A stretch of 64,000 bases of DNA from Stenotrophomonas sp. ZAC14D1_NAIMI4_1 (GTDB taxonomy: Bacteria; Pseudomonadota; Gammaproteobacteria; Xanthomonadales; Xanthomonadaceae), in assembly GCF_003086775.1 (NCBI RefSeq), contig NZ_CP026001.1:646407-710406 (forward strand), read 5' to 3'. Positions 4,841 through 32,360 of this stretch are shown here, one piece after another (within the stretch, counting starts at the first letter, position 1; the number at the start of each line of letters is the position of its first letter). Position numbers and translations under genes: made by a program. The notes beneath the pieces are model-generated. The model was not told where the DNA came from, did not search any database, and saw only the letters and a list, made by a program, of their open reading frames with translations.

Positions 4841-4865
4841 GTGCCGACCAACGGTCGGCACCCAC
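4841..4865. repeat. SMAG/REP palindrome (GTGCCGACC type)
   Basis: A single perfect inverted repeat reading GTGCCGACCAACGGTCGGCAC, just after the dinB stop. It is the first module of a longer compound intergenic region that also holds a 16-bp tandem repeat and a large palindrome. Confidence 0.75.
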
Positions 4866-4866
4866 C

Positions 4867-4930
4867 AACAGCAGCAGGTTCCAACAGCAGCAGGTTCCAT
4901 CAGCAGCAGGTTCCAACAGCAGCGGGAAAC
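4867..4930. repeat. 16-bp tandem repeat, about 4 units
   Basis: Four consecutive 16-bp units start at 4867, 4883, 4899 and 4915. The unit is AACAGCAGCAGGTTCC; units 1 and 2 are identical, unit 3 has one change and unit 4 is degenerate at its end. It lies between a SMAG element and a large palindrome, downstream of dinB. Unit number may vary between strains. Confidence 0.9.
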
Positions 4931-4937
4931 TGTCGAA

Positions 4938-5039
4938 GGCGGGGTGGGTCCGGTTGCGGGGGCGTGAGCGCCATGGATGGCGCGACCGAGCCTCCATGGA
5001 CGGATTCACGGCGTCCCCCGCAACCGGACCCACCCCGCC
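4938..5039 (+). repeat. Large palindrome with conserved loop, copy A
   Basis: Two perfectly complementary 25-nt arms (4938-4962 and 5015-5039) enclose a 52-nt loop. The loop contains an inner palindrome GCGCCATGGATGGCGC, a spacer GACCGAGCC, a second short CATGG hairpin, and ends ACGGCGT. The left arm is G-rich and is preceded by CTGTCGAAGG; the right arm is followed by CAACCCACGGAT. Four more copies with the same loop plan but other arm sequences occur at 27841, 28106, 31677 and 32086. It lies between convergent gene ends. It is not a rho-independent terminator because no U-tract follows. Confidence 0.85.
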
Positions 5040-11262: not shown

Positions 11263-11389
11263 CGGGAGGACTCCGGGTGCCACGCACGCCCGCGTGGCGA
11301 AGGGGAGGAGCCACGAAGGCAGGCACGCGCCGAAGCCGCGGCAGATGCCGCGATCATCCAGCGCCATGCCCACCGCATCGCGACCTGAG

Positions 11390-11572
11390 GCTTCCGGGCC
11401 GGTCTCCGGGCTTGCCGCCAGGTGGCGCGAGGCCACCGTCCAGGCGCCTTCCCATGCCGGTGGCACAGTGGCGGTATTGCCTGGAACAGACGTGCTTACC
11501 GTTGCGGGGGCAGCGCCGGCCTGGCGTGTTGCCACGCGTCACCGGCTTCCCGTTTCAACCTGCCGGCCGCGG
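11390..11572 (-). promoter_or_regulatory. Adenosylcobalamin riboswitch upstream of btuB
   Basis: On the minus strand the region contains, in order, GAAACGGGAAGCCGGTG (11540-11556), GCTGCCCCCGCAACGGTAA, and the B12 box AGCCCGGAGACCGGCC (11397-11412). These are the conserved cores of the Cobalamin (AdoCbl) riboswitch. It ends about 130 nt before the btuB ATG, so binding of adenosylcobalamin should switch off btuB expression, most likely at translation initiation. I see no U-tract terminator in the remaining leader. Confidence 0.93.
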
Positions 11573-11621
11573 CCGCAGGTCACCTGGAAGTGGGCGCAGT
11601 CTACGGCATCGCCGGCGGCCC

Positions 11622-27840: not shown

Positions 27841-27945
27841 GGGAGGACGGATGGGCCGCGCAGGACACGCCGCAAGTACGTCCGTGTAGGCTCGTAGGCG
27901 CCATCCATGGCGCCTGCGGTCCTGCGCAACCCATCCGTCCTCCCC
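27841..27945 (-). repeat. Large palindrome with conserved loop, copy B
   Basis: Arms of 26 nt (27841-27866 and 27919-27944) enclose a 52-nt loop. Read on the minus strand, the loop has inner palindrome GGCGCCATGGATGGCGCC, then ACGAGCC, and ends GTACTTGCGGCGT. The only arm mismatches are two adjacent positions, both G-U wobbles in this orientation. The leader AAACTGTC before the arm matches copy A. Confidence 0.82.
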
Positions 27946-28105: not shown

Positions 28106-28212
28106 GCGTTGGGGAGCGGGGGCGGCGCAAAACCGTGAGGCGCATGGATGCGCCGACCGAGCCCCATGGATGGGTTTACGGCGTGTTTTGCGCCGCCCCC
28201 GCTCCCCAACGC
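28106..28212 (+). repeat. Large palindrome with conserved loop, copy C
   Basis: Perfect 28-nt arms (28106-28133 and 28185-28212) enclose a 51-nt loop. The inner palindrome is GGCGCATGGATGCGCC, the spacer is GACCGAGCC, a CCCATGGATGGG hairpin follows, and the loop ends TTTACGGCGT. Arm sequence is unrelated to copies A, D and E beyond being G-rich on the 5' side, yet the loop aligns closely. Confidence 0.85.
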
Positions 28213-28321: not shown

Positions 28322-28945
28322 TTAGAAGCTGGCGCGCACGCCCACCCTGTACTCGGATACGTCCTTGTCGAACTGGCCTTCCAGTACAACGCCCCAGGTA
28401 TCGGTGAAGCTCACCTGCCCGCCCACCACGCCATACCAGCGCGCGTCCTGCCCATCGCCGCCGTTGGCGTAACCGCCTTTCAGCCAGCCTTCGAGCGTCT
28501 CGGTGAACCGGTTGCGCACGCCCACCATGCCCAGCACCTCGTTGAACCGGGAGGTCTCGCGGAACCGTGCGTCGTCGAGGCGGTAGTCCGATTTCGCCGA
28601 ACGGTGGTTCCAGGCGAACTCGCTGGTGAAGTCCAGACCGTCGCTGATCGGCGCGTGGTATCCCACGCCCAGGTACGGAACGTCGAGTGTGGTCTTCACC
28701 CGCGCAGCGCCCGCGTGCTCGCTTCCGCTGACCCGCGATGCGCCGACGATCACGTGGAACTGCGGCGCGACCGCGAACGAACCCCGCACGTAGCCACCAT
28801 CGGCCGTGATGTCACCGGCGCTGCCGGCGTCCAGCTGCAGCCGGTTCCAGCCGCCTTCCACGTACGTGTAGCTGAGCTCGTCGCTGGCCGAGGCCAGCAG
28901 TGGCGTTGCAAGCAGCAGGCCGGTTGCCAGGAGCATCTTGCGCAT
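28322..28945 (-). CDS. Ax21-family outer-membrane beta-barrel protein, paralogue 1
   Basis: A 207-residue protein with a signal peptide (MRKMLLATGLLLATPLLASA). The Ax21-type start of the mature chain is LSYTYVEGGWNRLQLDAG, alternating beta strands follow, and it ends EYRVGVRASF, a C-terminal aromatic typical of small barrels. It is a tandem paralogue of the next gene. Despite earlier claims for Ax21 as a signal, the established view is that these are outer-membrane or vesicle proteins. AAGGAC lies seven bases before the ATG. Confidence 0.82.
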   Translation of the reverse strand: MRKMLLATGLLLATPLLASASDELSYTYVEGGWNRLQLDAGSAGDITADGGYVRGSFAVAPQFHVIVGASRVSGSEHAGAARVKTTLDVPYLGVGYHAPISDGLDFTSEFAWNHRSAKSDYRLDDARFRETSRFNEVLGMVGVRNRFTETLEGWLKGGYANGGDGQDARWYGVVGGQVSFTDTWGVVLEGQFDKDVSEYRVGVRASF

Positions 28946-29039: not shown

Positions 29040-29663
29040 TCAGAAGCTGGCGCGGACGCCGACGCGGTACTCGGCGAAGTCATCGTAGAACTGGCCTTCG
29101 GCAACCACGCCCCAGGTGCGGTTGAAGCTGACCTGGCCACCGACGGTGCCGGTCCAGGTGCCTTTGAAGTGGTCGCTGCCGTCCATGTAGCCGGCCTTGA
29201 GCCACGCTTCGGTCTTTGCCGAAGGCTTGCCACGCACGCCGAAGTTGCCCACGGCGGTGTTGACGGAGGTCTTGGTGGAGTAGGTCAGGCCATCGGAATG
29301 GATTTCGCCCTTGCCCGTGCGACGGTTCCACGCGATGTCGGCGGTGAAGTCCACGCGCTCGCTCATCGGCATGTGGTAGCCGATGCCCAGGTGGGGCTGC
29401 TCGAGCGTGGTCTTGACGCTGGAGAAGGCGTAACGGGTGGTGTCGCTCACGCGCGACCAGCCACCGAACACGTTGACCTGTTCGGCGATGGCGAAGGAAC
29501 CTCGCACGTAGCCGCCATTGGCCTTCGGGTCGTTGAGGATGCTGGAGTTCATCTGCAGCTGGTTCCAGCCGCCTTCCACGTAGGTGTAGCTCATGCCGTC
29601 GTCGGCAAGGGCGGTCAGCGGAGCGGCGAGCAGCAACGTCGAGGCCAGGAAAATCTTGCGCAT
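29040..29663 (-). CDS. Ax21-family outer-membrane beta-barrel protein, paralogue 2
   Basis: A 207-residue protein with signal peptide MRKIFLASTLLLAAPLTALA, mature start MSYTYVEGGWNQLQMNSS and end EYRVGVRASF, identical at the last ten residues to paralogue 1. Two ATG codons are adjacent (29666 and 29663). I chose the second because its spacing from AAGGAC (seven bases) and its MRKI start match paralogue 1. The 94-bp gap between the paralogues contains a perfect hairpin ACCCCGTA / TACGGGGT. Confidence 0.82.
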   Translation of the reverse strand: MRKIFLASTLLLAAPLTALADDGMSYTYVEGGWNQLQMNSSILNDPKANGGYVRGSFAIAEQVNVFGGWSRVSDTTRYAFSSVKTTLEQPHLGIGYHMPMSERVDFTADIAWNRRTGKGEIHSDGLTYSTKTSVNTAVGNFGVRGKPSAKTEAWLKAGYMDGSDHFKGTWTGTVGGQVSFNRTWGVVAEGQFYDDFAEYRVGVRASF

Positions 29664-29839
29664 CATGCGGGTCCTTGTCATGCAGCGATCCAGACCGGGA
29701 CATGCAGGGACGCGCCCCGGCTGCGACGTCGTGTCGCTGGCCGAGTCTATCCATATTTCACACGCCGTGAACGTTCTGCGCCGCCGATGGCGCGGCCGGT
29801 ATCCAATCATTCAGCAAGCGCGCTGCGGCCTGCGCCAAC

Positions 29840-31358: not shown

Positions 31359-31608
31359 ACGGGGGCAGATCAAACTGATCGGCTGACTCGGAGCGTTCCC
31401 GTGAACCGCGCTGCGAGAATTGGGTGCAGCCGGCACGGAGCGCAGGCTGGAATGCGTGACGAACGGCGTCGGAGTGGGGGCGGGCGAAGAGGGCGGACCC
31501 AGGTCGCCGGCGATCCCGGAGGGAAACGGACGGCCGCTGCAGACCCTGTAAGTCTAAACGATCTTCAAGACTCCACGCAAAAACCCCTGTTCAGGTAGGG
31601 GGGGTGTC
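31359..31608. other. Upstream region of rhlE without recognised genes
   Basis: About 250 bp upstream of rhlE. I see no gene, repeat or convincing promoter here beyond the rhlE leader hairpin just before it. Its left part presumably includes the rhlE promoter. Confidence 0.5.
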
Positions 31609-31629
31609 TGCAGGGCTTGCAGCCCTGCA
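31609..31629 (-). repeat. GCAGGGC hairpin associated with copy D
   Basis: TGCAGGGC / GCCCTGCA with a five-base loop. On the minus strand the loop is TGCAA, identical to the hairpin after copy E. TTG-type hexamers lie next to it (31641-31657). Confidence 0.7.
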
Positions 31630-31676
31630 CCCGCCTCAGATCAACGTCAACTTCAAAAGCCTGCATTCCGTGGGTT

Positions 31677-31852
31677 GGCGGGGCGGGTCCGGTTGAGGGG
31701 GACGCCGTAAACCCCCAGGCCGGCCCAGCCGCTGGCGGCTGTGCGTTCGGGCGCTTGCGAAGCAGTGCTTCGCAAGCAAAGCGCCCTCACCCATGGGGGC
31801 TTGGTCGCGCCATCCATGGCGCTCACACCCCCTCAACCGGACCCACCCCGCC
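31677..31852 (-). repeat. Large palindrome with conserved loop, copy D, with enlarged loop
   Basis: Arms of 25 nt (31677-31701 and 31828-31852) have the same sequence class as copy A. On the minus strand one position is a G-U wobble. The loop starts GAGCGCCATGGATGGCGC, then GACCAAGCC, and ends TTTACGGCGT. The second hairpin carries about 75 extra nt with its own stems (CTTGCGAAG / CTTCGCAAG). The left flank in this orientation is CCTGTCGAAGG and the right flank CAACCCACGGA. Confidence 0.85.
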
Positions 31853-31894
31853 TTCGACAGGTTCCTGCGATCTGTCGGAACGGCGTTCTGCTTT

Positions 31895-31922
31895 GGTGGG
31901 TGCCGACCGTTGGTCGGCACCC
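31895..31922. repeat. SMAG/REP palindrome
   Basis: GGTGGGTGCCGACCGTTGG followed by TCGGCAC, next to copy D, as for the SMAG next to copies A and E. Confidence 0.75.
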
Positions 31923-31930
31923 AATGTGGA

Positions 31931-32036
31931 ATTCGATATCTGACAGATTCATCCACGCATGGCGTGGATCTACTGGAACGGCGTCCGGCAGTAGATCCAC
32001 GCCATGCGTGGATGATTTATTCGATATCTGACAGAT
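31931..32036. repeat. 18-bp direct repeat flanking a SMAG pair
   Basis: ATTCGATATCTGACAGAT occurs exactly at 31931-31948 and 32019-32036. Between them lie two facing SMAG copies of the GTAGATCCACGCCATGCGTGG type (31950-31973 and 31991-32014). The AT-rich direct repeats differ from the GC-rich surroundings. Confidence 0.8.
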
Positions 32037-32038
32037 GT

Positions 32039-32060
32039 GTCGACCAACGGTCGACACCCA
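32039..32060. repeat. SMAG/REP palindrome (GTCGACC type)
   Basis: GTCGACCAACGGTCGACAC, the SMAG module preceding palindrome copy E. Confidence 0.7.
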
Positions 32061-32085
32061 CCAACAGCCGCGTGAACCTGTCGAA

Positions 32086-32187
32086 GGTGGGGCGGTGTCG
32101 GATTGCGGGGTGTCCGCCGCATGGATGCGGCGGCCAAGCCTACAGGGACGTACTTGCGGCGTCCCCGCAATCCGACACCGCCCCGCC
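32086..32187 (+). repeat. Large palindrome with conserved loop, copy E
   Basis: Arms of 25 nt (32086-32110 and 32163-32187) enclose a 52-nt loop. The single arm mismatch is a G-U wobble in this orientation. The inner palindrome is GCCGCATGGATGCGGC, then GGCCAAGCC, and the loop ends GTACTTGCGGCGT, which groups it with copy B. The leader is CCTGTCGAAGG and the trailer CCAAACCACGGAT. Confidence 0.85.
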
Positions 32188-32207
32188 AAACCACGGATCG
32201 CCCGCTT

Positions 32208-32252
32208 TTGACGTTGACGTTGCTTCTGCAGGTGCAGGGCTGCAAGCCCTGC
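32208..32252 (+). repeat. TTGACG hexamers and GCAGGGC hairpin trailing copy E
   Basis: TTGACG occurs twice plus TTGC, followed by GCAGGGC-TGCAA-GCCCTGC at 32234-32252. It has the same order and loop as the modules near copy D. Confidence 0.7.
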
Positions 32253-32360
32253 CGAACCCCCCACTACGGTAGGGTGGGCCGATGCCGCGCTGCAGCTTGG
32301 CTACACCGCACATTTGATTACACTTGAAACTTGTTTGCCCACGACTCCGGACACCCACCC

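Follow-up and report, generated by a model that had tools for sequence, protein, structure and literature searches.

Palindromic Repeats in the Analysed Window

The window analysed here is a stretch of 64,000 nucleotides, corresponding to positions 646407–710406 of the single 4.70-Mb contig of Stenotrophomonas sp. ZAC14D1_NAIMI4_1 (hereafter, the home genome). Five large palindromes, copies A to E, are present in it (Table 1). Their arms are 25–28 nt long, and the loops of A, B, C, and E are 52, 52, 51, and 52 nt, respectively. Copy D reaches 176 nt through an insert of about 74 nt in the loop of its second hairpin. The strand carrying the loop motif is + for A, C, and E and - for B and D. The original prediction, which was based on the window alone, had described five elements with arms of 25–28 nt and, in four copies, loops of 51–52 nt; coordinates and lengths were all confirmed.

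A 16-nt tandem repeat lies immediately inside copy A. The outer flank of E mirrors the outer flank of D as inverted repeats. The pair B/C is adjoined by two genes resembling a tandem duplication, with an offset of 718 nt and an identity of 72–75% in three stretches. At the Rfam gathering level, the cobalamin riboswitch was the only match across the window, and no palindrome copy was matched.

Table 1. Palindrome copies, their parts, and neighbouring features in the window.
Feature	Position	Strand	Description
Copy A, single	4938..5039	+	stem 4938-4962 with 5015-5039
Copy A hairpin 1	4963-4988	+	CATGGATG
Copy A hairpin 2	4990-5012	+	CATGGACG
Tandem repeat inside copy A	4865-4926		16-nt unit CCAACAGCAGCAGGTT
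Cobalamin riboswitch	11380-11602	-	Rfam RF00174, 88.9 bits
Copy B, left half of divergent pair B/C	27841..27945	-	
Copy B loop	27867-27918	-	CATGGATG and CACGGACG
Copy C, right half of pair B/C	28106..28212	+	
Copy C loop	28134-28184	+	CATGGATG twice
Gene adjoining pair B/C	28322-28945	-	apparent duplicate
Gene adjoining pair B/C	29040-29681	-	apparent duplicate
Outer flank of D	31595..31676		TCCGTGGGTT side, hexamer-like run, GCAGGGCTTGCAGCCCTGC hairpin; from inverted repeats
Copy D, left half of divergent pair D/E	31677..31852	-	intact hairpin 1 (CATGGATG); insert splits the loop of hairpin 2
Insert in copy D hairpin-2 loop	31717..31790	-	about 74 nt, self-complementary; second GGA removed
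Inner part of pair D/E	31853..32085		CTGTC flanks and described RAYT-type REPs (GGTGGGTGCCGACCGTTGGTCGGCAC, GTAGATCCACGCCATGCGTGGAT; sequences from Table 1 of PMC2817692, consulted in part)
Copy E, right half of pair D/E	32086..32187	+	
Copy E loop	32111-32162	+	CATGGATG and CAGGGACG
Outer flank of E	32188-32267		mirrors outer flank of D

Copy Number and Divergent Pairs

A pattern describing the loop has 139 matches in the home genome, versus one for the reversed control pattern. Copies A, B, C, and E were used to build the covariance model R1, which yields 138 matches at E <= 1e-3. Together, these numbers exclude chance. R1 missed copy D, which was added by hand from the loop-pattern search, and the resulting set of 139 copies is used below. 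That the palindromes are one family of common descent with a conserved loop is borne out.

The 139 copies occupy 91 sites: 46 with the order '-+', one '-++', 26 '+', 18 '-', and none '+-'. All 46 two-copy sites are therefore divergent. Of the 44 single sites, 12 proved in a looser search to have a weaker second copy no more than 450 nt away, which in each case completes a '-+' pair; three of these partners score 77–81 bits and nine score 27–44 bits. A thirteenth weaker partner is present at locus L086, and a still weaker match at L083 (E 0.058) would make '--'.

The same order predominates in other genera. Among neighbours less than 600 nt apart, '-+' accounts for 14 of 16 in alignment A5, besides one '+-' and one '--', and for 5 of 5 in alignment A6; L114 belongs to both sets, and one A6 pair sits in a viral contig. 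A5 includes loci from a pattern that fixes the loop and was used for pair orientation alone. The divergent pair is therefore a feature of the family and not a peculiarity of the home genome. The sole '+-' neighbours observed are at positions 884-1144 of L209, from Marinobacter segnicrescens. The two copies of a pair seldom resemble each other in their arms: among 44 pairs (2 of the 46 were left out), partner arms are similar in one, versus 8.0 expected by random re-pairing (P 0.0014). Inverted neighbours with similar arms might thus be unstable or counter-selected.

Nearly all copies are intergenic. By gene calls from a hexamer scoring made for this analysis, which called 82% of the fetched DNA coding, 137 of the 139 cores overlap a called gene by at most 10 nt. 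Outer sides face the 3' end of a gene in 84 of 137 cases, with the stop codon at a median distance of 87 nt (interquartile range 78–94), and the 5' end in 53 of 137, with the start codon at a median of 166 nt. Sense and antisense orientations relative to the neighbouring genes are equally common. Apart from a short open reading frame at L031, pair halves enclose no gene. Among the 75 of 139 outer flanks displayed, many show hexamer-like runs (TTGACG, for example).

Two Hairpins on a Variable Stem

A copy consists of a long stem, almost unconstrained in sequence, that encloses hairpin 1 (loop positions 1–26), a single A, hairpin 2 (28–50), and then GT. The two hairpins atop the long stem form a T. 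The pairing scheme of the original prediction was right in outline, and it was refined here on 45 non-redundant copies. In these copies, 99.5% of 1529 cells pair and double changes occur in 24 of 34 pairs, in agreement with the earlier view that the arms are variable yet self-complementary. The covariation check that had been suggested was positive: the score is 0.684, versus 0.165 in shuffles, and none of 500 shuffles attains it. When the pairing partners are slid, the score falls to 0.056–0.113. Weaker measures are attained by some shuffles, the number of pairs with double change by 15 of 500 and the number of pair types by 20 of 500. An earlier scheme pairing positions 1–5 with 44–48, used for R1, was discarded; it gives 60–100% paired per position, versus 97–100% in the helices kept.

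Hairpin 1 is closed by C1-G26 or T1-A26. At position 3/24, none of 112 distinct copies has a standard pair, and positions 4–5/22–23 hold G.A and A.G or else ordinary pairs. Hairpin 2 is closed by GCC/GGC or GCT/AGC and carries a 5-nt bulge on its 3' side; the GT comes after this hairpin. Gapless pair counts leave out 12 of the 139 copies. In other genera, the stems are 21–43 bp, mostly about 30 bp, and appear mutually unrelated, while home copies fall into recurring arm subfamilies.

G.T pairs are scarce overall. In the home genome they exceed A.C by 18 to 2 in the 45 copies and by 36 to 8 in the 112 copies, which indicates that one strand is favoured. The asymmetry is weak in other genomes (G.T 28 versus A.C 19). 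An intrinsic terminator was considered and rejected, since no T-run directly follows the 3' arm in the flanks displayed (75 of 139 for outer flanks).

Relationship to YPAL/RU-2 and TwoAYGGAY

The original prediction did not assign the palindromes to any named family. This part falls. The loop is that of YPAL/RU-2 of Yersinia, for which RU-2, a 168-nt YPAL of Yersinia pestis, is printed in Table 1b of PMC2759123 (consulted in part), and relatives in another genome pass the Rfam cut-off for TwoAYGGAY (RF01731). Since a published repeat family is matched, the palindromes can no longer be claimed as unnamed, but the observation itself stands. The other proposal, a structured RNA or a structure-recognised mobile element, is judged right. 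Three aspects lie beyond the view from a single window: the fixed divergent pairing, the class-wide spread, and the twin CANGGANG loops.

The loops of RU-2 are CAAGGATG and CATGGATG, so that CANGGANG is present twice. In the second loop half of RU-2, 25 of 26 bases are identical to a home copy, versus at most 18 in 300 shuffles. The home copies share with YPAL the internal inverted repeats forming a long stem, the general plan, the high copy number, and the intergenic placement, with 137 of 139 home copies outside called genes. YPALs prefer positions close behind stop codons. The differences concern the host range and the form. The consulted sections of PMC2229807 report YPAL/RU-2 in Yersinia and Erwinia carotovora only, and the counts given in those of PMC2847712 are 2–144 for Yersinia species and 3 for E. 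coli. The stem of RU-2 is less perfect than in home copies. RU-2 as printed consists of one unit, and the excerpts of PMC2759123 and PMC2229807 do not mention pairs for YPAL, in contrast to the divergent pairs here. YPAL is reported as mobile, with target duplications of 3–26 bp and targets at dyad symmetries (PMC2229807, in part).

TwoAYGGAY RNA is likewise described with two A-Y-G-G-A-Y terminal loops, a variable outer stem, and tandem G.A (PMC2864571 and PMC4333381, both in part); the latter source places the tandem G.A in one stem and calls the outer stem poorly conserved. The three-way plan, the two AYGGAY terminal loops, and the poorly conserved outer stem are all found in the present family. 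High copy number, pairing, and mobility are unmentioned for TwoAYGGAY in the excerpts of PMC2864571 and PMC4333381.

With the TwoAYGGAY model, the best score in the home genome is 37.8 bits, under the gathering cut-off of 43 bits. The 17 home matches at E <= 10 are all below this cut-off; 16 of them fall on the 139 copies and the remaining one on the weaker partner at L078. In 12 carrier genomes, 19 matches at E <= 0.01 are confined to three genomes, and 12 of them exceed the cut-off, in relatives from genomes G225 and G355. The model is thus silent in 9 of the 12 and attains its cut-off in 2. Conversely, model R2 of the present family matches all 16 TwoAYGGAY loci fetched of the 19, at the identical place and strand. 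Cmscan at the gathering level reports TwoAYGGAY at 2 of 4 loci tried. The home copies are kin of TwoAYGGAY and not Rfam members. Copy A searched against Rfam at E <= 10 gives 55 matches, mostly microRNA hairpins, with TwoAYGGAY absent; these are taken as chance.

The complementary strand of the loop is contained in the consensus of the Yersinia sRNA 224 (Ysr224, RF02770; 38 bits, E 1.2e-7 for L111). Its strand is opposite to that of the family, and L111 is below its cut-off of 70 bits. Ysr224 suggests a transcript on the opposite strand in Yersinia.

These comparisons support a single family to which YPAL/RU-2 of Yersinia, the TwoAYGGAY RNA of Rfam, and the palindromes, as its Stenotrophomonas branch, all belong. 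The element is of a known kind; what is new is the host branch, the form, and a proposal of function that unites two families described separately. Searches of the literature found nothing linking Yersinia palindromic repeats with CsrA, nothing common to TwoAYGGAY and YPAL among the matches listed, and no sign of the present family in Stenotrophomonas.

Spread through Gammaproteobacteria and History of Sites

The suggested search of related genomes with a covariance model was positive. Matches were found in 23 of 41 nearer relatives, the home genome included. In the class as a whole, 369 genomes were sampled and 67 have a match, as do 59 of 271 genera. Up to 11 candidates per genome were scored in the class search and up to 105 in the search of nearer relatives, hence the copy numbers from both are lower bounds. 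Within the genus, copies range from 0 to at least 105; the contrast is between genomes G004, G007, G016, G018, and G024 and genomes G001, G005, G011, G021, and G022. Such a contrast could help to find the moving enzyme or an effect on CsrA.

One loop variant is carried, among the matches listed, by Marinobacter, Microbulbifer, Halopseudomonas, Zobellella, Alteromonas confluentis, and Marinimicrobium; the scan that named these carriers fixes the loops and serves as the source of names alone. The marine-type loop is also seen in contigs titled as a Klebsiella pneumoniae metagenome-assembled genome (L187, L213, L231, L235, and L252), which may be mislabelled bins. Among viral contigs, one stretch holds copies of the family, with arms of a Stenotrophomonas subfamily. 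With the single query L111, no match was found in plasmids or in E. coli. Since three YPALs are listed for E. coli (PMC2847712, in part), the empty E. coli result is a limit of this query. Carriage as phage or plasmid cargo was rejected on the single viral stretch and the lack of a plasmid match with L111.

Two sites of the window were compared across species. At the B/C site, matches are present in 9 of 27 genus loci searched, and the pair is also found in genome G410, where the neighbouring protein is 83% identical. Arms and loops differ widely across species at this site, yet near-perfect pairing is kept, the B copy of G009 being the least perfect. This is a clear case of long near-perfect palindromes that have been rewritten at orthologous sites and are still paired. 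At the A site, strong matches are present in 11 of 16 loci, plus one weak and partial match. Eight of the strong matches have the type and orientation of A, and three, from more distant species, have a different type in the opposite orientation.

No clean empty site was found at either site. The absences resemble deletions or rearrangements: those at L131, L150, and L156 and that of C in L157 retain pieces of arm, as deletions would, and L132 and L148 carry other sequence. Recent insertion is therefore not claimed. Insertion into pre-existing palindromes was also considered; elsewhere arms look unrelated between copies by eye, yet arm subfamilies recur at home.

Twin GGA Loops and CsrA

Both apical loops read C-ANGGAN-G. 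A script finds the twin motif in 136 of 139 home copies. Three are missed: L031, in which both motifs are visible by eye, and two that hold the insert. In the 137 home copies measured, the GGAs lie 20 nt (132 copies) or 19 nt (5 copies) apart. Across 68 copies taken from 29 other genomes, CANGGANG keeps its six bases fixed in 66–68 and both N positions are variable, a count that is flattered because the search model contains the loop bases and part of their conservation is hit selection. The model, rather than any motif pattern, served to locate these copies, and two viral-contig rows of the 70 were left out of the column counts.

Apical hexaloops of the type CANGGANG are described as high-affinity targets of CsrA/RsmE, with an optimal spacing of 18 nt (PMC4894983, in part), and TwoAYGGAY was predicted to bind CsrA (PMC4333381, in part). 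The family shows such apical hexaloops at suitable spacing. GGA hairpin loops are common to it and the CsrB/RsmZ-type sponges. The latter are described as single genes with multiple hairpins, whereas the family has over 130 copies, each bearing a pair of hairpins. The leader of Campylobacter flaA likewise has two GGA hairpin loops, 21 nt apart (for both comparisons, PMC4894983 in part).

The home genome encodes one CsrA and has no match to the RsmZ family, which was the family searched. This CsrA has L4 and R44, residues that contact RNA. CsrA is present in 55 of 56 good-quality carriers of the repeat versus 225 of 258 non-carriers (Fisher P 0.008), and in 62 of 67 versus 251 of 302 when all genomes are counted (P 0.03); genome size may explain the association. 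Five carriers are without detected CsrA, one of good quality (G235) and four poorer. CsrA-less genomes here are those absent from the positive list, as read by eye. Xanthomonas genomes are described as being without CsrB and CsrC homologues (PMC7286519, in part).

Possible Function and Mobility

Judged from the sequence, the family is probably (at roughly two chances in three) a mobile repeat whose RNA offers a two-site platform to a CsrA dimer, so that the copies together would constitute a distributed CsrA sponge. A copy read on the CANGGANG strand folds into a long stem of almost any sequence bearing two C-ANGGAN-G hairpins, with the GGAs 20 nt apart. It would be transcribed within an intergenic or 3' untranslated RNA, and one CsrA/RsmA dimer could then be bound across both loops. 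The long stem may hold the loops in place and resist trimming. The RNAs of more than 130 copies might jointly titrate CsrA, and each copy might locally shape the fate of the transcript that carries it. The family would have spread by miniature insertion, the route reported for YPAL. Whichever side it enters from, a transcript that runs through a divergent pair holds exactly one copy in the binding orientation. The opposite arrangement would do the same, so this does not explain why pairs are '-+'. It is a point against the CsrA platform that the outer gene's own transcript often meets the antisense strand of the nearest copy first.

A broader formulation can be offered tentatively, at somewhat under even odds. 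YPAL and TwoAYGGAY would be one old repeat family forming a dispersed layer of CsrA control, in which each transcribed copy is a two-site clamp on a long insulating stem. Where a lineage has no known CsrB-type RNA, the level of free CsrA would be set by the intergenic copies, more than 130 in number, through their combined output. The grouping itself brings together the mobile repeat of Yersinia and an orphan entry of Rfam in a single widespread family, and it gives both a specific prediction that is cheap to test, CsrA binding. With CsrB and CsrC homologues reported as lacking in Xanthomonas genomes, a high-copy repeat would be an unusual answer to CsrA titration in the order.

Near-perfect stems that differ between copies also suit a process at the DNA level. 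The family could be purely selfish mobile DNA, whose T-shaped hairpin is a site in single-stranded or extruded DNA, with the loop bases read by a transposase or nuclease and any RNA effect incidental. The reported mobility of YPAL, with its target duplications and dyad-symmetry targets (PMC2229807, in part), agrees with this, as do the arm-based subfamilies, the fixed pair order, and the range from 0 to at least 105 copies within one genus. The fit of the loops to the CsrA consensus with exactly the two N positions free, the absence of a clean empty site at the two sites compared, and the lack of genes between pair halves, save the short open reading frame at L031, speak against it. A role in DNA transposition only is rather unlikely, but it keeps some weight because of the scarce G.T pairs, the weak strand asymmetry elsewhere, and the five CsrA-less carriers.

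The tight spacing from stop codons would also be expected of a 3'-end element that stabilises or insulates messages by its stem alone, without CsrA, a role discussed for YPAL and ERIC; effects on RNA stability are discussed for YPAL in excerpts of PMC2229807. For a stabilising stem, two invariant CANGGANG loops are needless, 53 of 137 outer sides face a 5' end, and copies lie antisense to their neighbours as often as sense, which makes this explanation improbable. Many pairs have described RAYT-type REPs between their halves, and the GTAG-tagged REPs of Stenotrophomonas (SMAG) are themselves high-copy intergenic palindromes inside the same pairs (PMC2817692 and PMC3733652, in part). The SMAG REPs are 20–40 nt with a GTAG-type head, in contrast to the family copies of about 100 nt. 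That the palindromes themselves are REP/BIME units moved by a RAYT transposase is very improbable, as no GT(A/G)G head is seen beside the palindrome in the alignment columns and flanks listed, and both the length and the loop differ from the definitions of such units (PMC2817692, PMC3686654, and PMC3733652, in part).

Secondary Inserts in the Hairpin Loops

At least 11 copies (10 found by pattern, plus L078) contain a second repeat, a hairpin of about 75 nt. It interrupts the hairpin-2 loop at the same position in all of them, and the second GGA is removed by it. Besides the insert in copy D, the sites are L021, L029, L033, L064, L078, L079, L081, L086, L095, and L098 (two copies). It seems to be an element targeting hairpin loops. 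A different hairpin-bearing insert is found in the hairpin-1 loop at L155 and L157, from the genus relatives G021 and G011, and at L068.
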